NCBI RefSeq assembly: GCF_001579945.1
Contig: NZ_CP011971.1
Coordinates: 2,072,001-2,136,000, forward strand
Reading direction: 5' to 3'
Length of the DNA stretch: 64,000 nt
Source of the DNA: Steroidobacter denitrificans
Lineage (GTDB): Bacteria; Pseudomonadota; Gammaproteobacteria; Steroidobacterales; Steroidobacteraceae
In this document: piece after piece, positions 1 through 15,759 of the stretch
How the letters are laid out: each line of letters opens with the position of its first letter
How positions within the stretch are numbered: position 1 is the first letter of the stretch
Made by a program: the position numbers and the translations under genes
The notes under the pieces: model-generated
What the model saw: the letters and a program-made list of their open reading frames with translations, nothing else
Told to the model about the DNA's origin: nothing
Databases searched by the model: none

Positions 1-374
1 GAGGCTGAGCATCTTTTGCTTACTGGTGCCGCTACTCGCGGTGCGGCGCCATCCGAGTACCTCATCCATCACTTTGGGCCAGGCCGGCCGGCTTCCGAAT
101 CGGAAAAAGCGTTGGAATCAAGGCGTGCATTGTTGCGGTGGAATGACAGTGTGTCGCACCTTGGAGTGCTTGTCAGCGGCTGGAGTTTATTCCTACACTT
201 GGTCGTAGTTGATTGAAAATTATCCGACTTCATACGGTGGAGAAACTGCATGCAGCTTAACGACTGGGCGACAACCCGTCTTCGGGACACTCAAGCTCGA
301 TGCCAATGGCATGCTGGACGACCGGCAAAACCGCATCCGCCGAAATCGCTTCGTTGCGTGAGCGCGTGAAGACG
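1..374. other. non-coding lead-in upstream of the catabolic cluster
   Basis: I see no convincing gene in this stretch. The short open frames here have no recognisable domain and no good ribosome-binding site. AT-richer sequence around 205-235 could hold the promoter of the CoA-transferase operon, but I could not find a properly spaced -35/-10 pair. An in-frame ATG at 300 would extend the next gene by 25 residues that do not resemble the family N-terminus. Confidence 0.4.
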
Positions 375-1598
375 ATGACTGCCAAGAATCTTCCCCTCGC
401 CGGAATCAAGGTCGTCGAAGTCTCCATGTGGGCCTTCGTGCCGGCGGCAGGCGCCGTGCTTGCCGATATGGGTGCCGAGGTAGTAAAGATCGAGCCGCAT
501 ACCGGTGATCCGATGCGCGGACTCACTTATCAGGGCATCGCTCCTGGTACCGGAGGTTTCACCTTCCTCTGGGATATTTTCAATCGCGGCAAACGCAGCG
601 TCGCGATGGACCTGAACGTCGAGGGTGCCACGGATGTGTTGCACCGGCTCTTGGAAGATGCCGATGTTTTTCTGGTAAGTCTACTGCCGTCGGCGCGCCG
701 GAAACTGAAGATCGACATCGAGGATATCTGCAGCCGCCATCCCAGGCTCATTTATGCTGTGGGCAGCGGGCAAGGCGCCCATGGTCCCGAGGCGGACAAG
801 GGCGGCTATGACGCGCTCTCCTTCTGGGCGCGCGGCGGTGTAGCCTCTGCGGTAACGCCGGACGACTCGCCGCACGTTCTCCTGCAACCGACCGGCGCCT
901 TCGGCGACAGCATCAGCGGCGCGATCCTGGCCGGCGGCGTTGCAGCGGCACTCGCGCAGCGGGCAATGACCGGCAAGATTTCAGTCGTCGATACCTCACT
1001 GCTCGGTACATCCATGTGGGTGATGCAGACCGGCATCATCGGCGCAACGCTCGCCGGCGTAAACGAGTTGCCCAAGCTAAGCCGCGACATCGTGCCGAAT
1101 CCGCTGGTGAATAGCTACCGCACATCCGATGGACGTTTCATTGCCCTCTGCATGCTGCAAAGCCAGCGCTATTGGCCGGGCTTCTGCAAAGCCGCCGGCC
1201 GTCCTGAGCTGATCAACGATCCACGTTTCGATACCGACGAGAACCGCACCGCGAACCTGAAGGCCTGTGTGACCATGCTCGATGAGCTGTTTGCAACACG
1301 CACGCTGGCCGAATGGGAGACGATCCTTGCAAGCCAGGAAGGCCAGTGGAACATCGTGCAGCAGGCCGGTGAACTTGCACGGGATCCGCAGGCAGTGGCC
1401 AACCGCTTCATCCAGGAGGTCGATTACGGCGACAGCCGGGCACTCAAGATGGTCAGCACGCCCCTGCAGTTCGACCGCCAGGCACTCAATGCCCGTCCGG
1501 CCCCCGATCTCGGGGCGCATAACGACCAGGTGCTCGCCGAGCTCGGCTATGACGAGGAACAGATTCTCAACTTGAAGATAGCCGGCATCGTTTCCTGA
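375..1598 (+). CDS. CaiB/BaiF (class III) CoA-transferase
   Basis: 407-residue protein of the family III CoA-transferases, which move CoA between a thioester donor and a free carboxylic acid and usually activate a substrate for catabolism. The N-terminus (PLAGIKVVEVSMW, then ADMGAEVVKIE) is the standard Rossmann-like start, and the motif GGYDALSFWARGG carries the expected catalytic aspartate, about D146. Length is close to the usual 380-430. ATG 375 was chosen because the family fold starts there; ATG 300 is possible but adds an unrelated stretch. It is the first gene of a plus-strand cluster, 42 bp before a P450, which suggests CoA activation of a hydroxylated or carboxylated substrate. The substrate cannot be told from sequence. 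Confidence 0.88.
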   Translation: MTAKNLPLAGIKVVEVSMWAFVPAAGAVLADMGAEVVKIEPHTGDPMRGLTYQGIAPGTGGFTFLWDIFNRGKRSVAMDLNVEGATDVLHRLLEDADVFLVSLLPSARRKLKIDIEDICSRHPRLIYAVGSGQGAHGPEADKGGYDALSFWARGGVASAVTPDDSPHVLLQPTGAFGDSISGAILAGGVAAALAQRAMTGKISVVDTSLLGTSMWVMQTGIIGATLAGVNELPKLSRDIVPNPLVNSYRTSDGRFIALCMLQSQRYWPGFCKAAGRPELINDPRFDTDENRTANLKACVTMLDELFATRTLAEWETILASQEGQWNIVQQAGELARDPQAVANRFIQEVDYGDSRALKMVSTPLQFDRQALNARPAPDLGAHNDQVLAELGYDEEQILNLKIAGIVS

Positions 1599-1640
1599 GA
1601 CGGCAGCCGACGCACCGAAGATTCGCGTAAGGAGCATTCG

Positions 1641-2933
1641 ATGGCTGAAAGCCTACGACGGTCGACCAGTCCTTTGGCCGAAAAGCTATCCCGAGAGGAT
1701 TCCTGTCCGCACAAGGGAACTTCGGCATTGGCATCCAACCAGGCCGATCAGGCTGCATCGCATACGGCGGCCGGCGTTCCCAATGGGATCGAGACCGACT
1801 GGGATCCAAGGTCTGCCGAAGTTCTGCGCGATCAACGCGCCGCCTATGACTCCATGCGCGAACGCTGTCCCGTCGCCTTCAGCGAGTTCATGCACTGGTC
1901 TTTGTTCCGTCACGAGGACATCGAACGTGCGCTCCTGGATCATGAAACCTTCAGCAATGCGGTATCCCAGCATCTCACCGTACCGAACGGCATGGATCCG
2001 CCTGAACACACGGCTTACCGCGCCATCATTGATCGCTGTTTCACACCGGAACGCGTCGATGCATTTGCACCCGTCTGCCGCGGGATCGCTGCCGACCTGG
2101 TGCGCAACATGCTGGGACGCGACGAGGTGGAGTTGATAGCGGATCTGGCCTTGCCGTTCTCGGTATACGTGCAGTGCGCTCATCTCAACTGGCCGACGAC
2201 CCTGCATGAGCCGTTGATCCGCTGGACGCGAAGAAACTACGAAGCCAATCTCAAGCGGGATCGGCATATCACCTCGGAAATAGCCCGGGAATTCGAGGCG
2301 CTCATCGACGACATGATCGAAGCCCGGTCGCAAGGACAGTCGAAGCCTGAAGACGATCTTACCGCCGTCCTGCTCAATGAGCGCGTGTGGGGACGGCCGC
2401 TCAGCAACGAGGAAATCGCCAGCATCCTGCGAAACTGGACTGTCGGTGAGATCGGTTCCATCTCAGCGGCAGTGGGCATCGTGGCCTACTATCTGGCGCA
2501 GCATGTCGACTTGCAGCAGCAACTCAGGACACAACCTTCCCTGCTGGATGCCGCTATCGATGAAATCCTGCGCATGTTCGGCCCGTTGGTGGCCAATCGG
2601 CGGATCACGACCCGTCCGGTAGAAATCGGCGGCCGGAAGATCGGCGCCGGTGAACGGATATCGCTCATGTGGATCGCCGGCAACAGAGACGGGCGCGTCT
2701 TCGATGATCCCGACAGCTTCCGTCTGGATCGCGACCCGGCAAAGAATCTCCTGTATGGGGCGGGCGTTCATGTCTGTCCAGGTGCGCCGCTGGCCAGGCT
2801 GGAGTTGCGGATGATCACCGAGGAACTGCTCAGACAGACCACGGCGATCGAGCCAGTGCCCGGTAAAACCCCTGTCAATGCCATTTTCCCTTCGAGTGGA
2901 TATGCCACGCTGCCGCTGTGTATCAAACGTTGA
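1641..2933 (+). CDS. cytochrome P450
   Basis: 430-residue soluble bacterial P450 with no membrane anchor. The K-helix ExxR is E308-R311 and the heme loop YGAGVHVCPG gives the thiolate ligand C379; a Tyr stands where Phe is usual. The I-helix segment near residues 265-275 reads NWTVGEIGSIS, so the usual acid-Thr pair (AGxDT/ET) is not present in its normal form. A clear AAGGAG ribosome-binding site precedes ATG 1641. The first 45 or so residues are Ser/Ala-rich and look disordered. It sits between a CoA-transferase and an amidohydrolase, so a catabolic hydroxylation is likely. The only ferredoxin in the cluster is the 2[4Fe-4S] protein at 8201, and no ferredoxin reductase is visible. Confidence 0.93.
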   Translation: MAESLRRSTSPLAEKLSREDSCPHKGTSALASNQADQAASHTAAGVPNGIETDWDPRSAEVLRDQRAAYDSMRERCPVAFSEFMHWSLFRHEDIERALLDHETFSNAVSQHLTVPNGMDPPEHTAYRAIIDRCFTPERVDAFAPVCRGIAADLVRNMLGRDEVELIADLALPFSVYVQCAHLNWPTTLHEPLIRWTRRNYEANLKRDRHITSEIAREFEALIDDMIEARSQGQSKPEDDLTAVLLNERVWGRPLSNEEIASILRNWTVGEIGSISAAVGIVAYYLAQHVDLQQQLRTQPSLLDAAIDEILRMFGPLVANRRITTRPVEIGGRKIGAGERISLMWIAGNRDGRVFDDPDSFRLDRDPAKNLLYGAGVHVCPGAPLARLELRMITEELLRQTTAIEPVPGKTPVNAIFPSSGYATLPLCIKR

Positions 2934-3035
2934 TTACAGAATTTGCTGGCTTGCCGAGCGAGCAGGTTTCCTGAAGTTCCAGATCCTGCAGTTCGGTGCA
3001 GGCAATTGTCAGTCAAAGATAGAGGAGTTTCTGAA

Positions 3036-4172
3036 ATGAGTGCCATCCCCGTAAAACTATTATCGTGCGACACCCACCTTGAGCACTGGGGTACGGTGCT
3101 CGAGAATTACATTCCGCAAAAACATCATCCTCTGTTCGAACAGGCGCCCTACAAGATCAAGATTCACGGCCACACTCCCTGTTATGGGGACGATGGCGTG
3201 AACGTCGCGGCCATCGGCGGCTATCGCGACTACTGGAAGATCAGAAAGGGAACCATCGACATCAAGAAGGACAAGATTCCAGGAACCTATGGCGGACCGG
3301 ATGAATATGCCGAATGGATGAAGATCGACGGCATCACGGCGGCCGTACTGCTTCCCGGCGGGCCGACGGGCTCTGTCATCGGCGTGGCCCGCGGCACGCT
3401 CGATCGGGCTGAATATCTGGACGTGCTGCGGGGTTACAACAACTTCGCCAGCGATTTCTCCAAAGCCTATCCCGATATGTTCCTTGGCGGCGCCTGTATT
3501 CCGACGACCGGAATCGATGATGCCATCGCCGAGTTGCAGCGGGTAAGCAAGTTGCCGGGTATTCGTACGGTCGCACCGGCTGCCTTCCCCAATGGTTCGG
3601 CCAGTCCGCAACCCGAAGACGATCGTTTCTACCAGGAGGCGATGAATCTTGGCATGCCCATCACCATGCACGGCGGCTGGTCCAGCCCGATCGGCGGCTG
3701 CAAGAACGACCAGGACGTGGCTGCCTGGATCATCGGTCATATCGAGGTCGTCACCGGCGGACCCTACAGCGCGACGCAGATGATCCTGTCAGGCGTGTTC
3801 GACCGTCTGCCGAACCTGCGCATCATCGTGCTTGAGGCCGGTGCCGGTTGGCTGCCCTTCTCCATGGATGTCATGGATCACTTCTACGATCGCCAGCGCC
3901 ATTGGGCGGGTATCGACCTGAAGAATCCTCCCTCCTGGTACTGCACCAGCGGCAATTTCCTATGGAACGTCATTGCCGACAGGCACGCCATCAAGATGCG
4001 GAACTTCATCGGTGTCGACAACCTTTCCTGGGCATCGGACTTCCCGCATGGCAATTCCGAGTTTCCGGAAGATCGCGCCCGGGCCATGAAACTTGTCGCG
4101 GACTGCACTGCCGAGGAGCGTAACAAGATCCTCTGGAGCAATGCCGCCCAATTCTACGGGCTGGAGACCTGA
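3036..4172 (+). CDS. amidohydrolase-2 family metal-dependent hydrolase/decarboxylase
   Basis: 378-residue TIM-barrel protein of the amidohydrolase-2 family, whose members hydrolyse or decarboxylate small, often aromatic, acids with one bound metal. The N-terminal strand has CDTHLEHW (D12, H14) in place of the classical HxH; PITMHGGW gives a mid-barrel His near residue 211, and WASDFPHGNSEFP gives the late Asp near 334, as in decarboxylase-type members. ATG 3036 is preceded by AGAGGAG and was preferred to an upstream in-frame start at 2943. It lies 102 bp after the P450 in the same direction. A role in cleaving a ring or side-chain intermediate is inference; the exact reaction is unknown. Confidence 0.85.
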   Translation: MSAIPVKLLSCDTHLEHWGTVLENYIPQKHHPLFEQAPYKIKIHGHTPCYGDDGVNVAAIGGYRDYWKIRKGTIDIKKDKIPGTYGGPDEYAEWMKIDGITAAVLLPGGPTGSVIGVARGTLDRAEYLDVLRGYNNFASDFSKAYPDMFLGGACIPTTGIDDAIAELQRVSKLPGIRTVAPAAFPNGSASPQPEDDRFYQEAMNLGMPITMHGGWSSPIGGCKNDQDVAAWIIGHIEVVTGGPYSATQMILSGVFDRLPNLRIIVLEAGAGWLPFSMDVMDHFYDRQRHWAGIDLKNPPSWYCTSGNFLWNVIADRHAIKMRNFIGVDNLSWASDFPHGNSEFPEDRARAMKLVADCTAEERNKILWSNAAQFYGLET

Positions 4173-4197
4173 GGTATTCCCTTGGCGGGAAGGCGGC

Positions 4198-4224
4198 GCC
4201 CGGACTTCATCCTATGATCCGGGC
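4198..4224. repeat. inverted repeat after the amidohydrolase gene
   Basis: GCCCGGA (4198-4204) pairs with TCCGGGC (4218-4224), and an inner TCAT/ATGA pair extends the stem after a two-base bulge. No T-run follows, so it is not a standard intrinsic terminator. It may be an mRNA-stabilising or attenuating hairpin between the amidohydrolase and the DGC gene. Confidence 0.4.
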
Positions 4225-4261
4225 TGCCGCTCCCGTCTTCTGAACCTTGTGAGGATACTGT

Positions 4262-4672
4262 ATGAACACCGTGCATAGTGCAGATACGGGTACGGCAACT
4301 GTCGATCGATCGAAGCTGCCGCTGGTTTATTCCTGTTCCGGTTGCTCGAGCGCAGCCCAGACCAGCAATAGCGTGGCAATCGCGCTCGATCGCCGCAACC
4401 TGGCGGAGATGTCCTGCATCGCCGGCGTGGGTGGTGATGTCAAGAAGCTGGTCAAGGTTGCCAAGTCCGGCCGGCCGATCATTGCGATCGACGGTTGTCC
4501 CTTGGCCTGCGTGAAGAACTCTCTGGCACGTCACGGGGTGGAACCGGCAGTCTGGCACGAACTCTCCCAGTATGAGGTGGAAAAGGTCTATCAGGCCGAT
4601 CCGAATCCTGAACTGGTGAAGAAAGTGATAGGCATCGTGACCGACTCGCTGAGTTCGATACCGCAGAAGTAA
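4262..4672 (+). CDS. putative zinc-binding protein, DGC domain
   Basis: 136-residue protein of the DGC family, named for a conserved Asp-Gly-Cys motif and predicted to bind zinc through four cysteines. Visible candidates are C25 and C28 (YSCSGCSS), the Cys of EMSCIAGVGG near residue 55, and IDGCPLAC near residue 80. Length is typical. A GAGGAT ribosome-binding site precedes ATG 4262. Biochemical function is not established for the family. Here it lies directly upstream of a 2-oxoacid oxidoreductase, so a metal-handling or Fe-S-related accessory role for that enzyme is a reasonable but unproven idea. Confidence 0.85.
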   Translation: MNTVHSADTGTATVDRSKLPLVYSCSGCSSAAQTSNSVAIALDRRNLAEMSCIAGVGGDVKKLVKVAKSGRPIIAIDGCPLACVKNSLARHGVEPAVWHELSQYEVEKVYQADPNPELVKKVIGIVTDSLSSIPQK

Positions 4673-4683
4673 GCCTTTGCCGC

Positions 4684-4705
4684 CCGGGATGCAGTCGCAT
4701 CCCGG
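4684..4705. terminator. perfect 9-bp hairpin after the DGC gene
   Basis: CCGGGATGC (4684-4692) and GCATCCCGG (4697-4705) form a perfect stem with a 4-nt loop, 11 bases after the DGC stop codon. It lacks the T-tract of an intrinsic terminator and could instead be an RNA-processing or partial attenuation hairpin inside the 205-bp gap before the oxidoreductase genes. Confidence 0.35.
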
Positions 4706-4877
4706 CCGGACTCGAGATCTCGCCGCCGGCATGAAACCCGTAAGCCGTTTTCGCTCCCAAGCTGTTTTCGCCATGAAAGATTCGAGTTCGAGGGCGAATA
4801 TGCATGGGATCGCCGTGACCTGCACGGTCGCGGACAAGGGCTTATCAGACGAAGGAATCTGTTGCTAAACGACACTG

Positions 4878-6653
4878 ATGATGACTACGAATATTCAGGA
4901 TAGAAATTCAGCGCGTTTGGAAGGAACCGGTTCCTCGATTTCCGTCGCACTGGCCGGCAGCGGTGGAACAGGCGCCATCTCGGCAGCCACCATGCTGGTG
5001 GATGCCGCCGGAAAGGCGCAGTGGTACGCGTTGATGACCCGATCGGTCGGTGCGCAGATCCGGGGCGGTGAGACCGCTGCGCTGATCCGCTTCAGCACCG
5101 ATCCCGTGGCGGGTCACGGCGATGATTTTCAGGTTCTGCTGGCCTTTGACTGGCAGAATCTCGAACGCTTCGCCAGTGAAATCCCCTTATCGGCGAACAG
5201 CCTGGTCATTGGCGATCTGGACCATGGAGCGGCGCCGGAGGTGATCGCCGCAACCGGCGCCCGCTATGTCGGGCTGCCGCTCAAACAGCTTGCCAGGACG
5301 ATTCCCGGCGGGCGTCCGAATATGGTGGGCATGGGAGTCGTTGCCGGGCTGATCGGGCTGCCGCTTGAGCCCTTGTATTCCGTACTCGAGAATTTTTTCG
5401 CCGATAAAGGCGATAAGATCCTGGCCGTCAGCAAACAGACGGTAGCGGTCGGTTATGAAGCGGCGGCAGCGCTCGGCGATGAATATCGGCTGCCGCCGGC
5501 TCATACACCGTCATCGGGAAAACGCTGGAGTATCAGCGGCAATCAGGCTACGGGCCTGGGCGCCCTCAGGGGAGGCATCCGCTTCGTTGCCGCATATCCC
5601 ATCACGCCGGCCACCGAAGTTCTGGAGTGGATGGCGGGGGCATTGCCCGGGGTCGGAGGCGCGCTGGTCCAGGTCGAAGATGAACTGGCGGCAATCAACC
5701 AGATCGTCGGCGCCTCATACGGCGGTACGCCGGCACTCACCGCCACCGCCGGTCCAGGCCTGTCATTGATGATCGAGTCGCTGGGTCTGGCCGTCGCTGC
5801 GGAAGTCCCGCTGGTCGTGGTGGATGTCATGCGCGGCGGTCCATCGACCGGCATCCCTGCGAAATCGGAGCAGGCGGATCTCAATATCGCGATTTACGGC
5901 CTGCATGGAGATGCCCCGCACCTGGTGCTGGCACCGAATTCCGTAACGGACTGCATCTTCACTACACAATGGGCCACGCATCTATCGGAGACTCTGCAGG
6001 CACCGGCGATCGTGCTTTCCGATCAATATCTCGGACAGACGAAAGCGGTGTTGGACAGGCCTCCCGATATCGTTTTTCCGACCCGGCGTGAATTGGCTAG
6101 CGAACCTGCCGACGGCCGGAAGTATCTGCGCTACGCGGATACGCCTTCCGGTGTTTCGCCCATGGCGACCCCGGGTATGCCGGGTTGTCAATATACGGCG
6201 GACGGTCTCGAGCATGATCAAAGCGGTGCGCCCTCCTCGCGTGCCGAGGACCATCTTGCTCAGATGAACAAACGTGCCCGCAAGCTTGCCGACCACGACT
6301 ACGGAGACTACTGGGCGGATCTCGACGGCGAAGGGGATCTGGCCATCGTTACCTGGGGCTCATCCACCGGCGCGGTACGAGAAGCGGCGAGTAGATGGCG
6401 AAAGGAAGGCGGCAAGGTCAGAGTGCTCAGCGTTCGCCTGCTGGCGCCGGTACAGCCGGAAAAATTTCAGCAGGCCCTTGCCGGCGTATCTCGCATACTC
6501 GTGGTCGAGCAGAGCCACGGTGCACAGTTCTACCGCTACTTGCGGGCTTATTACGACCTGCCGCAGCAGACCAGGATCCTGCATCAACCCGGTCCGTTAC
6601 CGTTTCGGCCGCACCAGATCTGCGAACAACTTTCCAGCTGGAGAGCGACGTGA
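4878..6653 (+). CDS. 2-oxoacid:acceptor oxidoreductase, alpha subunit (fused gamma-alpha)
   Basis: 591-residue large subunit of a CoA-dependent 2-oxoacid:ferredoxin oxidoreductase, which oxidatively decarboxylates a 2-oxoacid to acyl-CoA and passes low-potential electrons to ferredoxin. Residues about 20-190 are the gamma domain (GSGGTGAISAATMLVDAAG; RSVGAQIRGGETAALIRFS). From about 219 comes the alpha pyrimidine-binding domain (SGNQATGLGALRGG, AAYPITPATEVLEWM, GIPAKSEQADL), then the C-terminal domain from about 480. This is the KorA-type fusion layout; the substrate (2-oxoglutarate, pyruvate, aryl pyruvate) cannot be assigned. ATG 4878 is followed by ATG 4881 and preceded by an in-frame stop at 4866; the ribosome-binding site is weak. 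Its stop overlaps the GTG of the beta subunit. Confidence 0.92.
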   Translation: MMTTNIQDRNSARLEGTGSSISVALAGSGGTGAISAATMLVDAAGKAQWYALMTRSVGAQIRGGETAALIRFSTDPVAGHGDDFQVLLAFDWQNLERFASEIPLSANSLVIGDLDHGAAPEVIAATGARYVGLPLKQLARTIPGGRPNMVGMGVVAGLIGLPLEPLYSVLENFFADKGDKILAVSKQTVAVGYEAAAALGDEYRLPPAHTPSSGKRWSISGNQATGLGALRGGIRFVAAYPITPATEVLEWMAGALPGVGGALVQVEDELAAINQIVGASYGGTPALTATAGPGLSLMIESLGLAVAAEVPLVVVDVMRGGPSTGIPAKSEQADLNIAIYGLHGDAPHLVLAPNSVTDCIFTTQWATHLSETLQAPAIVLSDQYLGQTKAVLDRPPDIVFPTRRELASEPADGRKYLRYADTPSGVSPMATPGMPGCQYTADGLEHDQSGAPSSRAEDHLAQMNKRARKLADHDYGDYWADLDGEGDLAIVTWGSSTGAVREAASRWRKEGGKVRVLSVRLLAPVQPEKFQQALAGVSRILVVEQSHGAQFYRYLRAYYDLPQQTRILHQPGPLPFRPHQICEQLSSWRAT

Positions 6654-7510
6654 TTCATGAACCCTTGCTGCAGCAGAAAGAACCCGATGCCGTCATGAAG
6701 GATCCGGACAGCTATCGTTCCGGGGTCAAGCCGGTCTGGTGTCCCGGATGTGGCGACTATTCTGTGCTGAGCGCTCTGACCAACGCCATGAGTGCGCTGC
6801 AGCTGCCGCCTGAACAGGTCGCCTTGATTTCGGGCATCGGCTGCTCATCGCGAATACCGACATATGTCAACGTCTATGGTTTTCATGGCGTGCATGGGCG
6901 TGCCCTGCCGCTGGCCACCGGACTCAAGCTGGCGCGGCCCGATCTGACCGTACTGGCAGCCGGAGGCGATGGTGACGGTTTTTCGATCGGCGGCAATCAT
7001 TTTCTGCACGCCTGCCGCCGCAATGTGGACATGACCTATATCATCATGGACAACGAGGTCTACGGCATGACGAAAGGCCAGGCCTCGCCGACCACCGCGC
7101 CGGACTGGACCGGAAGCGATCTAACCCCGGCGGGAACCGGCTTGACCGCTTTTCAACCCTTGTTGCTGGCATTGGTGACCGGCGCCAACTTCATCGCCCG
7201 CTGCTTCAGCGGCGACCCGGCCAATTTGGCGGAAATTCTGGTCGAGGCGATTCGACACCCGGGCTTCTCGGTCGTACAGATCCTGAGTCCCTGTCCGACT
7301 TTTCGCCCGGAGCAGCGCCAGTGGAAAAATCAGGTGCGTGAGATCCCCGACAGCGCAACAGCCGATTTTCGCAGCGCCGCCCGTTTTTTGATGGAAGATG
7401 ACGGCCTGAGCGTGGGGCGGATCCTTTATCGCACAGATCGTAAGCCATTCGCGCTCTCGAAGAACCGGCGCGGTGATATCAGCGAGTTAGACATGGAATT
7501 CGTACTATGA
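6650..7510 (+). CDS. 2-oxoacid:acceptor oxidoreductase, beta subunit (thiamine-PP binding)
   Basis: 286-residue KorB-type subunit holding thiamine diphosphate and a [4Fe-4S] cluster. The four expected cluster cysteines are present: C31 and C34 (WCPGCGDY), C65 (GIGCSS) and C215 (SPCPTF). The Mg-TPP site is GGDGDGFSIGGNH with DNEVYGMTKGQ. The start is taken as GTG 6650, which overlaps the alpha stop as GTGA and follows GGAGAG; a longer frame from 6395 would run inside the alpha gene. The stop overlaps the next ATG as ATGA, so the beta subunit and the ferritin-like protein are translationally coupled. It should form the catalytic dimer with the alpha subunit in the cytoplasm. Confidence 0.92.
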   Translation: MIHEPLLQQKEPDAVMKDPDSYRSGVKPVWCPGCGDYSVLSALTNAMSALQLPPEQVALISGIGCSSRIPTYVNVYGFHGVHGRALPLATGLKLARPDLTVLAAGGDGDGFSIGGNHFLHACRRNVDMTYIIMDNEVYGMTKGQASPTTAPDWTGSDLTPAGTGLTAFQPLLLALVTGANFIARCFSGDPANLAEILVEAIRHPGFSVVQILSPCPTFRPEQRQWKNQVREIPDSATADFRSAARFLMEDDGLSVGRILYRTDRKPFALSKNRRGDISELDMEFVL

Positions 7511-8037
7511 CTGCAAGCGGCAATATCAAACCGGAGCGTTCCCTCGAGGATCTGTTGGCCTATGCCGAGATCATGGAACGTGCTGCCGCCAATCGTTATG
7601 CGGAGTTGGCCGATATCATGACGGTCCACAACAACCCGGAGGTCTCGGAATTATTCCGCAAGATGGCTGCCATCGAATGGCTGCATGTGAATAATGTCAA
7701 TGAACTGTCACGTGAACTGACGACCCCGGTTGATGCGGTGCAGGCCGGCGGCGGTGATCGCCTGCGCGGCGCCGAGATTCCGGATTCGGAAGACATGCAT
7801 TATCTGCACACGCCGCACCATGCATTAAAACTGGCGCAGAAATATGAGCAAAACGCTCTGGATTTTTATCGCCAATTGGCCGAGTCGGCGAAGAGCGACG
7901 AGTTGCGTGCCGCGGCGCTGCGGCTGGCGGCCGAGGAGGAATCTCATCTGCGTGAATTGGATAGCTGGCTGCTTCAGTATCCCGAACCGGAACCCGGTTG
8001 GGATAAGGACTTTGATCCGCCGAATGCAATTGATTGA
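7507..8037 (+). CDS. ferritin-like/rubrerythrin-type diiron protein
   Basis: 176-residue four-helix-bundle protein with a complete diiron ligand set: E24, E57-x2-H60, E114 and E144-x2-H147, the two-fold E/ExxH pattern of ferritin-like and rubrerythrin proteins. There is no C-terminal rubredoxin domain (no CxxC pairs), so it is an erythrin-only form. It overlaps the oxidoreductase beta gene by ATGA. Known relatives act as peroxidases, iron stores or oxygenases. Coupling to an oxygen-sensitive Fe-S enzyme suggests peroxide or oxygen protection, or a redox partner fed by the same ferredoxin. That role is inference; the diiron fold itself is well supported. Confidence 0.85.
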   Translation: MTASGNIKPERSLEDLLAYAEIMERAAANRYAELADIMTVHNNPEVSELFRKMAAIEWLHVNNVNELSRELTTPVDAVQAGGGDRLRGAEIPDSEDMHYLHTPHHALKLAQKYEQNALDFYRQLAESAKSDELRAAALRLAAEEESHLRELDSWLLQYPEPEPGWDKDFDPPNAID

Positions 8038-8200
8038 CTCGTACAAGCACAGCAGGACAACACCGGCACCCGCTGTCCAGGTGATGATCTGCGGATACAC
8101 TTGATGTTCATGCTGGATCGGCAGGCCAATGCGAAGTCTGTCGCAGCAAATCGCCGGGAACGCTCGGCATACTTCGATATTGACCGATAGGTGGCAAGTC

Positions 8201-8410
8201 ATGAGTCTGAGAATCACGGAACTGTGCAGCGCCTGTGATGCGTGTCTGTCTGAATGCCCTACGGAAGCCATTACCGCCGGAAGACCCTACGTAATCGATC
8301 AGGACAAGTGCGTCGAATGCGTCGGCTTCTTCGATGAACCTCAATGCATGGATGTCTGTCCGGTCAACGGAGCAATCGTGCCGGCAACGATGCAGTCCGG
8401 TGCCGGTTGA
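8201..8410 (+). CDS. 2[4Fe-4S] ferredoxin, Chromatium/YfhL type
   Basis: 69-residue small ferredoxin. The first cluster motif is CSACDACLSECP (C-x2-C-x2-C-x3-CP). The second has an enlarged loop, C-x2-C-x8-C-x3-CP (CVEC...CMDVCP), the signature of Allochromatium vinosum-type ferredoxins, which work at very low potential. ATG 8201 follows AGGTGG; a longer frame from 8129 adds residues unlike a ferredoxin. It is the likely electron acceptor of the 2-oxoacid oxidoreductase encoded just upstream, and possibly the donor to the P450 or the diiron protein. It lies 163 bp after the diiron gene and 14 bp before the flavin reductase. Confidence 0.92.
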   Translation: MSLRITELCSACDACLSECPTEAITAGRPYVIDQDKCVECVGFFDEPQCMDVCPVNGAIVPATMQSGAG

Positions 8411-8424
8411 CGAAGATATCGCCG

Positions 8425-9390
8425 ATGCAGGCAGTCGCCATGAGCACCGACCCGGGAGATCTGCGCCGGGCGTTCGGTACCTTTGCCACCGGAGTGACGA
8501 TCGTTACCGCCCGCAGCGTGACCGGACAGGACGTAGGCTTGACGGTCAACAGCTTCAGTTCCGTTTCGCTGGATCCCCCGATGGTGCTCTGGAGTCTCGC
8601 CAAAACCTCGGGAAACCGTGCCACTTTCATGGAAACGGACTCTTTTGCCGTACATATCCTGGCCCAGGAACAGGCTGATCTCGCCGCGATATTCGCCCAG
8701 CGCGGTGTTGATAAATTCGCCGGGCTCGAGCTTGATCGCGGTATCGAACAGGTCCCTTTGCTCGATAACTGCAGTGCCCGCTTCCAGTGTAAGACGGTTT
8801 TCCGCTTCGATGGCGGCGATCATGACATTCTAGGCGGCGAGATCGTCGCCTATGAGCATTTCGAGCGCCCTCCCCTGGTCTTCCTCTCCGGCCGGTATGC
8901 GATTGCCATGGAGCATCCCGAGGAGGGCCCGGCAGCCGAGGATCAAGAGCCGTTCGCCACCAGTACACTGATGTCGTTGCAGTATCTGGTGGCCAAGGCG
9001 CACTATCAATGTCAGCTTGCTCTACGGCCCGAGCTGGCCCGGGCGGATCTCACCGAGGTCGAGTTCTATCTGCTGGCGGTTGTAGCAATGACCAGTCCCT
9101 GTACAGTGGATTATCTCCTGCGGCGGGTAGAAACCTCGGGGGCCGAGGTCAGCAAGGTGAATATCGACCGTCTCGTGAATCGAGGCTTTCTGGTCAGGCA
9201 GAGCGCGGCGCGGGAAGATTTACGTATCACTATCGAAGGCGGCAAAATTCTGATGCGGCTCGCCGCCGTCAGAAAGACCATCGAAAGCGATGCCCTCAAG
9301 GACTTCAGTTTGACCGAGATCGGCGTCTTCAAACAAATGCTGCGCAGGGTGGTCCAGCGAACCATGCCGGCAGAGCACAGCCTGGCATGA
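8425..9390 (+). CDS. flavin reductase with C-terminal MarR-like domain (HPAH C1-like)
   Basis: 321-residue two-domain protein. Residues 1-170 are a flavin reductase of the HpaC family (AFGTFATGVTIVTA, LTVNSFSSVSLDPPMVLWSL, SFAVHILAQEQ, then GGDHDILGGEI), which uses NAD(P)H to make free reduced FMN/FAD for a partner monooxygenase. Residues about 200-320 look like a MarR winged helix. This layout is that of the C1 reductase of Acinetobacter p-hydroxyphenylacetate hydroxylase, where the extra domain senses the aromatic substrate. ATG 8425 and ATG 8440 are both possible starts; neither has a strong ribosome-binding site. No C2-type oxygenase is encoded next to it, so the partner lies elsewhere or is unusual. 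Confidence 0.87.
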   Translation: MQAVAMSTDPGDLRRAFGTFATGVTIVTARSVTGQDVGLTVNSFSSVSLDPPMVLWSLAKTSGNRATFMETDSFAVHILAQEQADLAAIFAQRGVDKFAGLELDRGIEQVPLLDNCSARFQCKTVFRFDGGDHDILGGEIVAYEHFERPPLVFLSGRYAIAMEHPEEGPAAEDQEPFATSTLMSLQYLVAKAHYQCQLALRPELARADLTEVEFYLLAVVAMTSPCTVDYLLRRVETSGAEVSKVNIDRLVNRGFLVRQSAAREDLRITIEGGKILMRLAAVRKTIESDALKDFSLTEIGVFKQMLRRVVQRTMPAEHSLA

Positions 9391-9473
9391 CGGCTCCCGC
9401 CGGAAATCGCCGTTCCCGATCCTCGGCGATCCCTGCCTCCTCGACCTCCCGCCCGAACCGCTGATGCCGCCGC

Positions 9474-9500
9474 GAGGTTGGATGCTACGCATCCAACCTC
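9474..9500. terminator. perfect 12-bp hairpin between convergent genes
   Basis: GAGGTTGGATGC (9474-9485) and GCATCCAACCTC (9489-9500) form a perfect stem with a 3-nt loop. It sits between the flavin reductase (plus) and dnaE (minus) and includes the last dnaE codons and its stop. No T-tract follows on either strand, so it would act as a transcript-end stabiliser or a non-canonical bidirectional terminator. Confidence 0.5.
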
Positions 9501-12500
9501 GATGCATACACCAGCCGCAGGCCGTCATGGCCGAATAATCGACTCAAACGCTCGGTCAGCTCGCAGGTCGGCGTCACCGACCATTCATCCGGCAGCACCA
9601 CTTCCGCGCGCGCCTCGATATTTCGGTAGCGTATCGCCACTTGGCAGCGTCCGCCGCGAAACGGCTGCAGCGTCTCGTGCAATGACTCGACGAACCGGCG
9701 ATCGACCCCGCGGTCGGCCTCGCCATCGGCATTGACGGGCCAGCGCAGCACCAGGCGGCGGCCATATCGTTCACGCGCCTGATCGATGTCCATCACGTGT
9801 TTGGCAGTCAGGCGCCAGTCCTCAATGTAATCATCGAAGCGCAGCGAGCCTTCGACTATCAGGATCGCACCCTTCGCGACCCGGCTGCGGTACTCCTGCC
9901 AGACATCCTCGAACATGGAGACCTCCATGCGGCCGCTGCGATCATCGAGCGTAAAAGTCGTACGCTGGCCGCGCTTGCCGGTTTCGAACACCATGCCGGC
10001 CACGGATACGGGTCTGCCCTTGAAATGAAATCCCTCGTTGCTTCCGGGTGCCGGCCGCTCTCCGATGATATCGGCGATGCGGCCGCTGATGATGGGACGC
10101 AGTTCGGCGGCGAATTCCTCGAATGGATGTCCGGTGAGATACAGCCCCAGAGTCTCGCGCTCCCCCTCCAGGCGCACGCGGGAACTCCAGTCCGGCAGCA
10201 CCTCCACCGGCACCGGCGCCTCGCTCTGTGTATTCGTATCCAGGAGGCCGAACATATCGTCCTGGCCGACGGCGCGTGCACGCAGAGTCTGGTCCGCAAG
10301 CTGCATCGCCGCCGGCAGACTGTGCATCAAGGTGGCACGGTTCGGCCCCAATGAATCGGCGGCGCCGGCGCGGATCAGCGCCTCCAGCACGCGGCGATTC
10401 ATGCGATTGATATCGGAGCGCCGGCATAGATCGGCCAGGTCGCGATAGGGACCGCCGCTGTCGCGTTGGGCAACCAGCATTTCCACGACGCCCTGGCCGA
10501 CGCCCTTGATCGCACCGAGTCCATAGCGAATACGGCGTTCGCCCGATACCGTGAACATGTAGTGCGAAGCGTTGACATCGGGCGGCTCGACCTCGAGCCG
10601 CATACGGCGCGCCTCATCGATCAGAGTCACGACCTTGTCGGTCTTGTCCATGTCCGCCGACAACACCGCTGCCATGAAGGCGGCTGGATAATGCGTCTTG
10701 AGCCAGGCGGTCTGATAGGACAGCAGCGCGTAAGCGGCGGAGTGGGACTTGTTGAAGCCGTACCCCGCAAATTTTTCCATGAGATCGAAGATATGTTCCG
10801 CCGTGCGCTGTGCGACACCACGGCCGGTCGCGCCGGTCACGAAGATCGAACGCTGCTGCGCCATTTCCTCGGGCTTTTTCTTGCCCATCGCCCGGCGCAA
10901 CAGGTCGGCTCCGCCCAGCGTATAGCCGGCCAGCACCTGGGCAATCTGCATGACCTGTTCCTGGTACAGGATGACACCGTAGGTCGGGGCCAGTACAGGC
11001 TGTAGATCGGGATGCAGATAGTCGATCGGCCCGGTGATCTTGCCATGCTTGCGGGCGATGAAGTCATCGACCATGCCCGATTGCAGCGGTCCCGGCCGGA
11101 ACAAGGCCACGAGCGCGATGATGTCCTCGAAGCAGTCCGGCTGCAGACGCCGGATGAGATCCTTCATGCCGCGCGATTCGAGCTGGAATACTGCAGTGGT
11201 TGTACAGCGCTTGAGCAGATCGTAGGTGGCCGTATCGTCCATGGGCAGTGCGGCCATGTCCAGCAACGCTTCGCCGTGCTGCAAGCGCTGCGCATTGATG
11301 GTCTTGACGGCCCAGTCGATGATCGTCAGGGTGCGCAGGCCCAGAAAATCGAACTTGACGAGCCCGACTGCTTCCACATCATCCTTGTCGAATTGGGTGA
11401 CGACGCTGCCGCCGGAGGCATCACAGAACAGCGGGGTGAAATCCGTCAGCATCGAGGGCGCGATCACCACGCCGCCGGCATGCATGCCGGCGTTGCGGAC
11501 CAGGCCTTCCAGCGACATGGCCATATCCAGCAGTGCGCGCGTCTCCTCCTCCTCGCGATAGCGGCGCCGCAGTTCCTCCTCCTTCTCCATGGCTGCCTTC
11601 AGCGTGATGCCGAGTTCAAACGGTATCAGCTTGGCGATCGAATCGGCGTAGCCGTAACTCTGGCCGAAGATCCGCGCGACGTCGCGCACCACCGCCTTGG
11701 CGGCCATGGTGCCGTAGGTAATGATCTGGGAGACGCGCTCGCGCCCGTAGCGCTGCGCCACATAGTCGATGACCCGATCACGGCCGTCCATGCAGAAGTC
11801 GATATCGAAGTCGGGCATGGAGACGCGTTCCGGATTGAGGAAGCGTTCGAACAGCAGATCGTAGCGCAGCGGGTCAAGATCGGTAATGCCAAGGGCGTAC
11901 GCCACCAGGGATCCGGCGCCCGAACCGCGGCCGGGGCCGACCGGCACACCATTGTCGCGTGCCCAGCGAATGAAGTCCGCTACGATCAGAAAATAGCCGG
12001 CGAAGCCCATCGGGCAGATGACGCCGAGTTCCGCATCCAGGCGTTCCTGATATTCCCGCGGGGTGATCACGCGCGCCTTCATGGGTGCGGCACCGAGCCG
12101 GAGCAGTCTTTGCTGCAGCCCCCGCTGCGACTCCTCACGCAAAAAATCCTCCATGCTCATGCCGGAAGGCACGGGATACGGCGGCAGCACCGACTTGCCG
12201 AGGGTCAGTTGCAGGGTGCAGCGCCGGGCGATCTCGACGGAATTCGTCAGCGCCTCGGGCAGCTCCTTGAACAAGGCCGCCATTTCCTGCGGCGACTTGA
12301 GATACTGCTCGCGGCTGTAATGCCGCGACCGCTTGGGATCATCGAGCAGGCTGCCTTCCTGGATGCATACGCGCGCTTCATGCGCATCGAAGTCCGTGGG
12401 CCGCAGAAAACGTACGTCGTTCGTGGCGACGATCGGCACACCCCGCTCGCAGGCGAGTTCGAGCGAGCCCTGGATGAGCCGCTCTTCCGCCTCGCGGCCG

Positions 12501-13744: not shown

Positions 13745-14931
13745 GCCCGCCGTTCCCCGTGCGCCTCGCACTCGGTCCCATCATCGATCAGCGCAACGAT
13801 CGCCGCCGCCGCGCTGGCGCTCGCGTCACGCCGCAGCATGCCGTGCATGTCTGTGAAAGTTTGCATCAGCTGCTCGCGATCCGCACGCTCGAGCTGTGCC
13901 AGCAGGGCCGGTCCGAGCACCTCCGCGCGCACTTGCCGGTTGAAGTACTCGGGAACGATCTGCCGGCCCGCCAACAGGTTGGGCTGAGCAAAGAAAGGAG
14001 CCCTGAAAAGCTGCAAGGTCTTGAGCAAAAAGCTGGTCGGCCAGCCCAGGCGATAGGCCACGACCATCGGTCGCTTCACCAAAGCAGCCTCCAGGGTGGC
14101 CGTGCCGGACGCCAGCAGCAGCACATCCGCGGCGGCCATCACCTGCTGGGCCTGCCCGTCCGCCAGGCGCACCCGCTCCGCCACGCCAGCCTCGGCCAGT
14201 GCGGCGGTCAGGATCCGGCGGGCCGGTTCATTCGCCGGCGCCGCGATGAACTGCAGCTGTGGCCTTCGCTCCAGCAGCCACTTGACGGTCGCCGCGAAGG
14301 GCGGTGCCAGACGTGCCACCTCCCCTCGCCGGCTGCCCGGCAAAAGACCGATGCAAATTTGCTGCCGGACCAATCCCAGCGCATCGCGCGCCTCGTAAGG
14401 GTCCAGATGCAGGGGAATCCGGTCGGCCAGTGGATGACCGACGAAAACCGCGGGTACACCATGCGCGTCATAGAATGGCTTCTCGAACGGCAGCAGGCAC
14501 AGGATGAGATCCACGGCGCGTCCGATCGTGCGTACCCGGCCCTGACGCCAGGCCCATACCTGCGGGCTGACATACTGGACGGTGGGGATGCCATGCGCCT
14601 TGATGACCGGTGCCAGGCGAAGATTGAACTCCTTGGCGTCCACGCCGATGTATACGTCGGGGCGCTGCTCCAGCACACGTGCCCGCAGCCTGCGGCGGAT
14701 ACGCAGCAGGCGCGGCAAATGCGGAACGATCTCGAACAGCCCCATCAGGGCCAGTTCCTCGGCGCGTTCCCAGGGCTCGCAGCCAGCCGCAATCATCCGC
14801 GGTCCGGCAATGCCGGCGAAGCGGGCCTGCGGCAGCCTGGCGCGCAAGGCATCGATCAGCTGGGCTCCGAGGTTGTCGCCGGAGGCCTCGCCGGCCACCA
14901 GAACGATGAACGGCGCTGCCCTACTGGACAC
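13741..14931 (-). CDS. lpxB: lipid-A-disaccharide synthase
   Basis: 396-residue glycosyltransferase that joins UDP-diacylglucosamine and lipid X to form the lipid A disaccharide at the inner membrane. It shows the N-terminal signature [14 protein letters not shown], then [13 protein letters not shown] and the sugar-nucleotide-binding [10 protein letters not shown], with [16 protein letters not shown] near the C-terminus. The start codon is GTG at 14931; no ATG precedes the conserved strand. It follows lpxA by 39 bp and overlaps rnhB by ATGA. Confidence 0.97.
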
Positions 14932-14970
14932 GGTCGCAGAGGTGCCTGTCGAGGCCGGGGGAACCTGTGT

Positions 14971-15759
14971 TCACCGAACGATTCCGACCCGCTCACGCCG
15001 GGGCGTGGAGTCGTTCAGGAAGTCCACCAGGGGCAGGAGCTCCGGCTGGCGGGCGCTGCGCTGTACGAGTTCGGCGCTCGCCTGGGACAACTTGAGTTTC
15101 GAGCGATAAAGGATCTTGTAGGCATCCTTGATGTTGCGGATCTGCTCCGGCGTATAGCCGCGCCGCTTCAGTCCTTCGGCATTGACGCTATGCGGCTCGG
15201 CCGGACGTCCGACCGCCATCACGAACGGCGGCACGTCCCGCGTGACCGCCGTATTGTTGGCGATGAATGCATGCGGTCCGACCTTGCAGAACTGATGCAC
15301 ACCGGAGAACCCGCCCATGTGCACCCAGTCGCCTAACTCGACATGCCCGCCCAGAGTCGCATAGTTCGCGAACACGCAATGCGAACCGATAACGCAATCG
15401 TGTCCCACATGCGCCCCCGCCATGAACAGATTGTCATTGGCGATGCAGGTGACCAGCCGGTCCTTGGTCGTGCCGCGGTTGATCGTGCAGTTTTCGCGAA
15501 AACAATTGCGATCGCCGATTTCCAGGCGTGTCGGCTCGCCGCGGTACATCAGATCCTGCGGCGCCGCGCCGATCGAGGCAAACTGGAAAATCCTGTTATC
15601 GCAGCCGATCGTCGTGGGACCGTCGATCACGACATGTGCGCCGATCCAGGTTCCCGCGCCGATCTTCACGCCGGCACCGATCACCGTGTAGGCTCCGACC
15701 TCGACTCCCTCCGCCAGTTCGGCGTCCGGGGCGATCAATGCAGTCGAATGGATCGGCAT
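14971..15759 (-). CDS. lpxA: UDP-N-acetylglucosamine acyltransferase
   Basis: 262-residue left-handed beta-helix trimeric acyltransferase for the first step of lipid A synthesis. It starts IHSTALIAPDAELAEGVEVG with hexapeptide repeats throughout, and has the catalytic His region FMAGAHVGHDCVIG and the C-terminal helical part (GVHQFCKVGPHAFI, LKRRGYTPEQIRNIKDAYK). Length matches E. coli (262). It lies 32 bp after fabZ and 39 bp before lpxB. Confidence 0.98.
   Translation of the reverse strand: MPIHSTALIAPDAELAEGVEVGAYTVIGAGVKIGAGTWIGAHVVIDGPTTIGCDNRIFQFASIGAAPQDLMYRGEPTRLEIGDRNCFRENCTINRGTTKDRLVTCIANDNLFMAGAHVGHDCVIGSHCVFANYATLGGHVELGDWVHMGGFSGVHQFCKVGPHAFIANNTAVTRDVPPFVMAVGRPAEPHSVNAEGLKRRGYTPEQIRNIKDAYKILYRSKLKLSQASAELVQRSARQPELLPLVDFLNDSTPRRERVGIVR

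Follow-up and report, generated by a model that had tools for sequence, protein, structure and literature searches.

The analysed window comprises positions 2,072,001 to 2,136,000 (64,000 nucleotides) of the single 3.47 Mb contig of Steroidobacter denitrificans and contains, between positions 300 and 9390, a run of nine genes that are all encoded on the forward (+) strand: a CaiB-type coenzyme A (CoA) transferase, a cytochrome P450, an amidohydrolase-2 protein, a DGC-domain protein, the alpha-gamma and beta subunits of a 2-oxoacid:ferredoxin oxidoreductase (OFOR), a ferritin-like diiron protein, a ferredoxin and a flavin reductase. The original prediction was confined to the segment 4262..9390, where it recognised five kinds of redox or metal proteins encoded in one direction. 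All of these genes were recovered by family searches on the + strand, and the run begins upstream of that segment, at 300, with the CaiB, P450 and amidohydrolase-2 genes preceding the DGC gene. The DGC protein (4262..4672, +) is an AnvM-like cysteine protein (PF08859, E 2.7e-31). It is followed by the fused gamma-alpha subunit of a KorA-type OFOR (4878..6653, +; TIGR03710, 546.9 bits with a cut-off of 482.75), the OFOR beta subunit (6650..7510, +; TIGR02177, 271.7 bits with a cut-off of 261.9), the diiron protein (7507..8037, +; Rubrerythrin, PF02915), a YfhL-like 2[4Fe-4S] ferredoxin (8201..8410, +) that falls just under the cut-off of NF033683 (80.3 bits against 86), and the flavin reductase (8425..9390, +; PF01613, E 8.6e-40). 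Curated cut-offs are exceeded for DGC (PF08859), POR, POR_N, TPP_enzyme_C, Rubrerythrin (PF02915), Fer4, Flavin_Reduct, TIGR03710 and TIGR02177. The start of the flavin reductase was placed at the ATG at 8425; the open reading frame start at 8344 would overlap the ferredoxin gene. The GTGA overlap of the OFOR alpha and beta genes (6650-6653) and the ATGA overlap of the OFOR beta and diiron genes (7507-7510), both described previously, can be read directly in the sequence. With gaps of 205 bp between the DGC and OFOR alpha genes and of 163 bp between the diiron and ferredoxin genes, only the two OFOR genes and the diiron gene are tightly coupled; a further gap of 89 bp separates the amidohydrolase from the DGC gene. 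Terminator-like matches in positions 1-9700 on both strands are no more frequent than expected by chance (8 versus a shuffle mean of 6.8).

The OFOR and the ferredoxin resemble the electron supply of anaerobic aromatic degraders. The cluster and diiron ligands, earlier noted as intact, are all in place: the ferredoxin contains 8 cysteines (9, 12, 15, 19, 37, 40, 49 and 53), and the OFOR beta subunit contains six (31, 34, 65, 122, 185 and 215), a CxxC motif among them, with two further cysteines that we take to be cluster ligands. Named genomes were surveyed by alignment, and the best 80 of 461 related stretches, some of which are cut by contig ends, were compared; they come from Thauera, Azoarcus, Aromatoleum, Magnetospirillum, Azospirillum, Sedimenticola, Sulfuritalea and other genera. 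The OFOR alpha subunit is 52-64% identical to its counterparts in related loci (55-64% in the 80 loci), and by both identity and tree the OFOR belongs to the clade found in class I benzoyl-CoA reductase (BCR) clusters, with bcrC/A/D matches in 32 of the 80 loci. In the OFOR tree, the window copy and that of Paraburkholderia dinghuensis (locus L060) are sisters (SH-aLRT 80) on a branch of their own, both with long branches; nearest to it by path are BCR-linked copies from Thauera and Azoarcus. The ferredoxin is of the YfhL/Alv type, as in the KorAB/BCR cassette, and is 61% identical to the ferredoxin that ends the bcr run in one of the examined genomes (G020, L041). KorAB of Thauera aromatica is described as the electron supplier of BCR (PMC9973337). 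Homology thus gives good support to the proposal that the OFOR is the low-potential electron source for the neighbouring 2[4Fe-4S] ferredoxin.

Like rubrerythrin, the diiron protein folds as a bundle of four helices and has a pair of ExxH motifs for the diiron site; its ligands (E24, E57xxH60, E114 and E144xxH147) fall on the four long helices of the structural model. It contains no cysteine, hence, unlike rubrerythrin, no C-terminal rubredoxin FeS4 domain. The uncharacterised ferritin-like protein PDB 2oh3 is a sequence match (E 3e-28) and also the best fold match. Across 70 sequences, position 57 is mostly E (51), otherwise S (13) or Q (6); the window protein and that of L060 share E, and Ser is found in L043, L045 and L110. 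In 64 of the 80 loci, 75 of which extend at least 3.2 kb beyond the OFOR alpha start, the diiron gene directly follows the OFOR beta gene, and a ferredoxin match is present anywhere in 46 and just downstream in 18. When Oah is counted along with the bcr genes, 36 loci are of the BCR type (33 with the diiron gene), 11 more encode an aldehyde ferredoxin oxidoreductase (all 11 with the diiron gene), one encodes UbiD alone (with the diiron gene), and 32 encode none of these (19 with the diiron gene). The ferritin-like gene thus tracks the OFOR rather than a particular sink. The original prediction had cast the diiron protein as an electron acceptor; given its position directly after OFOR beta whatever lies downstream, it looks like an OFOR accessory rather than an electron sink. 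The open literature yielded no account of such a protein beside KorAB or BCR, with subscription papers outside the search, so that absence is not proven. Diiron-like genes without a nearby OFOR match also occur (G018:C80 and G042:C6).

Among 59 relatives of S. denitrificans (60 genomes with its own), a diiron match was found in 6 and OFOR alpha, at 53-58% identity, in 5, with the OFOR and diiron genes adjacent in each of these 5. Some of the gene calls in other genomes were made with an in-house caller based on G+C content by codon position, which produces false antisense calls, and names given without a family search are the authors' reading. In two of these genomes (G020 and G018), the pair adjoins class I BCR genes (HGD-D in both; the BcrAD family in G020); three others (G036, G037 and G052) carry the cassette and have no HGD-D match, which indicates that it occurs without BCR elsewhere too. 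The S. denitrificans genome (completeness 100) likewise has no HGD-D match. Plasmids gave no diiron match, and OFOR matches solely under 60%. A first contig scan for the diiron protein had turned up no relative; later searches did. Altogether, the core, that is, the OFOR and the ferritin-like protein, often with a ferredoxin, is not new; it is the KorAB-type set that supplies electrons in anaerobic aromatic degraders. The window shares with the KorAB/ferredoxin units of the class I BCR clusters of Thauera and Azoarcus the OFOR clade (60% identity to three Thauera loci), the ferredoxin type and the ferritin-like gene after OFOR beta, whereas DGC, flavin reductase, P450 and amidohydrolase genes take the place of BCR.

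The run occupies the space between sui1 and dnaE, which is about 9.5 kb here and 838 bp (G012), ~2.0 kb (G010), ~4.0 kb (G008) and ~4.2 kb (G002) in four congeners, where the flavin reductase and CaiB queries found no match in the interval. The diiron protein has no match at E 0.001 or better in any of 13 same-genus genomes. Because of these short intervals without flavin reductase or CaiB and the lack of a diiron match in all 13 congeners, the cluster fits an acquired island that would have been inserted at a variable spot between sui1 and dnaE. Separately, the length of the interval differs in each of the four congeners (838 bp to 4.2 kb), and the site (window 1-300 and 9390-9485) may be an insertion hotspot.

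The closest sister system is found in P. dinghuensis, a betaproteobacterium. One set in L060 encodes, in a row, DGC (71% identity to the window protein), OFOR alpha (64%), OFOR beta (75%), diiron protein (53%) and ferredoxin (70%). A second set, on the other strand, encodes DGC (79%), diiron protein (48%), ferredoxin (72%) and flavin reductase (30%), with an OFOR alpha match that covers merely the first ~100 residues and no OFOR beta match. Its order, DGC, the OFOR cut short, diiron protein, ferredoxin and flavin reductase, is that of the window. The search proposed earlier, for the five families in the same order elsewhere, therefore succeeded, if with a truncated OFOR, and the idea that the order is unique to this genome is to be rejected. 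L060 is the only one of the 80 loci with matches to the DGC, flavin reductase and amidohydrolase-2 proteins. Across 398 genomes drawn from the P. dinghuensis family (itself included), in each of which no more than 8 initial candidates were scored, a strong diiron match was found in P. dinghuensis alone and a weak one in two genomes. The recurrence of this order in a betaproteobacterium, together with the OFOR-diiron pair in many genomes, argues that the gene grouping is more than chance.

The preferred interpretation, which is given a probability of about 0.5, is that the run was acquired horizontally and is built around the low-potential electron cassette of anaerobic benzoyl-CoA degraders (both OFOR subunits, the diiron protein and the ferredoxin), which resides here in a genome that lacks BCR and most likely feeds an enzyme of the same run. 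The cassette itself is known, but its setting is new, and the combination is a new variant. Judging by its family, the OFOR would oxidise a 2-oxoacid, probably 2-oxoglutarate, with CoA and reduce the ferredoxin, which would most likely feed an enzyme of the run, with the P450 as the first candidate, followed by the amidohydrolase-fold protein and the flavin reductase. OFORs are generally sensitive to oxygen (O2), and the diiron protein, being constant beside the OFOR, would protect or service the O2-sensitive OFOR/ferredoxin pair by removing O2, peroxide or nitric oxide (NO), or by handling iron. The DGC protein would tie the cassette to anoxic or denitrifying conditions.

Several neighbourhoods bear on these conditions. 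AnvM (PA3880) of Pseudomonas aeruginosa is described as an interaction partner of the anaerobic regulator Anr, with a cysteine, Cys44, that is sensitive to oxidation (PMC6650552). It belongs to the same DGC family as the window protein but differs in gene neighbourhood; a P. aeruginosa record annotated as anvM matches 70% of the DGC query at 62% identity. On pHG1 of Cupriavidus necator, a DGC homologue lies less than 6 kb from nosZ; genes for two U32 peptidases, a Crp/Fnr protein and a hemerythrin are within the same distance. The P450 (1641..2933, +; PF00067), the single match of its query in its own genome at E 0.001, retains the heme cysteine motif (YGAGVHVCPG), whereas the I-helix acid aligns to Gly272 and the alcohol is kept as Ser273. 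It is 46-58% identical to six aligned plasmid P450s, and Gly occupies the I-helix acid column in all seven aligned rows, window included (the second Caballeronia copy was left out). The neighbourhoods of all seven closest plasmid P450s (at least 46%) among the matches listed were inspected, and six are near denitrification genes: those of P. fungorum and two Caballeronia lie within runs of narGHJI and transporter genes, that of Ciceribacter is beside a multicopper oxidase gene read as NirK, and those of Ensifer and Shinella are at most two genes from NnrS; the exception is Sphaerospermopsis. An anaerobic ribonucleotide reductase gene lies less than 5 kb from the P. dinghuensis cassette. In view of the DGC homologue near nosZ and Crp/Fnr, the AnvM-Anr interaction, the P450 relatives near nar and NnrS genes and this reductase gene, the cassette most likely works at low oxygen or during denitrification.

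Several facts weigh against the preferred interpretation. The G+C content of the cluster (58-63%) is merely slightly below that of the dnaE side, and the support for the sister relationship with the P. dinghuensis OFOR is modest, both branches being long. The P450 query has no match in any of the 80 loci, the L060 stretch included; the nearest one to the L060 cassettes (C3:24644) is outside that stretch, and the form with DGC is known from only two genomes among those examined. Five more P450 matches lie on the P. dinghuensis contig along with genes that were read as Rieske-type, which fits an aerobic pathway, and the cluster itself includes kinds of proteins that usually depend on O2, namely P450, flavin reductase and the oxygenase-like amidohydrolase. 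In 13 of the 80 loci, the diiron match is missing even though the sequence extends at least 3.2 kb beyond the OFOR alpha start. Finally, 7 of the 13 cassette-free congeners have HGD-D matches, so that BCR-family genes and the cassette do not travel together within the genus.

Alternatively, the two halves of the run could be chance neighbours, with CaiB, P450 and amidohydrolase forming a catabolic set that uses other redox partners while the OFOR cassette would supply an enzyme encoded at another site in the genome. This appears unlikely. The CaiB protein, a class III CoA transferase (300..1598, +; PF02515, E 1.5e-86), is the first gene product of the run. In favour of the alternative, CaiB, P450 and amidohydrolase genes are not found in this order beside the P. 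dinghuensis cassette; the DGC gene is flanked by the gaps of 89 and 205 bp. Furthermore, the S. denitrificans genome encodes elsewhere a [2Fe-2S] ferredoxin (C1:2781469) and, at C1:554243, a protein that shares 37% identity with a CamA-like reductase, so the P450 need not depend on the cassette, and the absence from the cluster of an NAD(P)H-ferredoxin reductase, on which the original prediction had relied, does not mean absence from the cell. On the other hand, nine genes in one direction in a single insertion, with terminator-like matches at chance level, speak against chance neighbours.

Doubtful as well, and somewhat more so, is a class IV-like oxygenase system in which the OFOR and ferredoxin would feed the P450, an oxygenase of the amidohydrolase fold, or both, as part of an aerobic route for a terpenoid or steroid acid activated with CoA, with the diiron protein guarding the OFOR from O2. 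OFOR-ferredoxin-P450 is a named class (class IV; PMC9112060), and the CYP119 system of Sulfolobus is an example (PMC9962201); the latter source reports that archaeal OFORs and ferredoxins lie outside P450 operons. In the window, OFOR, ferredoxin and P450 are all encoded within 6.8 kb (1641-8410), in a bacterial and clustered candidate set whose P450 lacks the I-helix acid. The earlier remark that no system with this exact set is described thus does not extend to the core or to the OFOR-ferredoxin-P450 chain (PMC9112060). The amidohydrolase-2 protein (3033..4172, +; PF04909) is near DitZ and PtmU3, which are among the dinuclear amidohydrolase-related oxygenases (AROs; PtmU3, DitZ, AibH2 and SfbO, with DitZ counted by fold and motif only) and are its best matches in the PDB by sequence (E 1.2e-21 and 5e-19) and by fold (E 1.4e-16 and 1.7e-14), followed in the fold search by AibH1H2 and decarboxylases at ~1e-12, for a model whose mean pLDDT is only 70. 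AROs are described as taking electrons from a neighbouring ferredoxin (PMC7782822 and PMC10811679), and the former source gives the ligand set as D, H, H, E, D, H, with an acid two residues past the last His kept solely in binuclear members. The six ligands (D13, H15, H213, E268, D336 and H339) are invariant in six aligned rows, but the seventh acid is replaced by Asn in the window protein (DFPHGN), in contrast to DYPHx[E/D] in all four P. dinghuensis proteins. Moreover, described ARO ferredoxins are of the Rieske type, which the family search did not find among the cluster proteins, the window ferredoxin being 2[4Fe-4S]. The lack of the I-helix acid and the general O2 sensitivity of OFORs also tell against an aerobic oxygenase system. 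The three amidohydrolase-2 genes around the P. dinghuensis cassettes, all with the dinuclear motif, are in its favour. Assignment of a substrate from the CaiB or amidohydrolase protein was considered and rejected as unproven, the long amidohydrolase matches being ~22-30% identical.

The bolder proposal of a bacterial, operon-encoded OFOR-ferredoxin-P450 chain in which the P450 acts on NO or in anoxic chemistry, with electrons from a 2-oxoacid rather than NAD(P)H and with the ferritin-like protein as a guard, is improbable. Slightly less probable still is a function in NO handling, whereby a denitrification-linked P450 would reduce or scavenge NO with ferredoxin electrons and the diiron and DGC proteins would take part in the same response. 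The neighbourhoods of six of the seven plasmid P450s, the invariant Gly at the I-helix acid position and the DGC homologue near nosZ are compatible with such a function, but none of the neighbouring CaiB, amidohydrolase and flavin reductase genes is an NO gene, and both the likeness of this P450 family to P450nor and its NO chemistry are putative. The least likely alternative is that the ferredoxin passes its electrons to the diiron protein as terminal catalyst, as originally proposed: the ligands of the diiron protein are intact and its gene overlaps OFOR beta, but it follows OFOR beta alike in loci of the BCR type, of the aldehyde ferredoxin oxidoreductase type and of other kinds, its best relative is uncharacterised, position 57 varies and a rubredoxin domain is lacking.

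On the preferred interpretation, the supply of low-potential ferredoxin in anaerobic aromatic degraders would be mobile as a cassette and could be joined to other enzymes. The uncharacterised 2oh3-family ferritin-like protein gains a frequent genomic partner, which makes its role testable, and the run provides a clustered bacterial candidate for an OFOR-driven P450. It also draws attention to the P450 family found among nar, nirK-like and nnrS genes.

The flavin reductase, with its C-terminal MarR-like region, resembles the reductase (C1) of p-hydroxyphenylacetate 3-hydroxylase (PDB 5zc2, E 9e-47), but MarR_2 is below its cut-off, the score against NF045919 (212.3 bits) is below the equivalog cut-off of 340, and the oxygenase partner of that system is not in the cluster. 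The DGC protein was considered as a specific marker of the module and rejected: among 369 genomes of the class, counting its own, 14 have a match, and the three other loci inspected (L155-L157, one of just 8 kb) gave no match to any OFOR query. The P450 family (L217, L218, L219, L222, L223 and L225; 46-58% identity) recurs among nar, NirK-like multicopper oxidase and NnrS genes; the Ensifer copy (L222) matches in two pieces, out of register near the end, and may be interrupted. The four amidohydrolase-2 proteins of P. dinghuensis with the binuclear motif are encoded at 8088-9257, 14135-15271 and about 16163-17311 of L060 and at 5465-6775 of L167, and the three genes in L060 flank both OFOR cassettes. 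In Sulfuritalea-like genomes (L075 along with L067, L073, L074, L077, L078, L080, L082, L085, L090 and L093), OFOR-diiron sets, most of them with a ferredoxin, share the locus with genes for aldehyde ferredoxin oxidoreductase, which may be another sink that this cassette serves. In the Aromatoleum loci L061, L064 and L068, the ferredoxin gene directly follows the OFOR genes and there is no diiron match. In G020 and G018, a gene read as an Oah-type hydratase is also near the OFOR-diiron pair, and in G018 (L044, 5603-9242) two more genes, read as an indolepyruvate-type OFOR pair, lie directly beyond the KorAB-diiron set.

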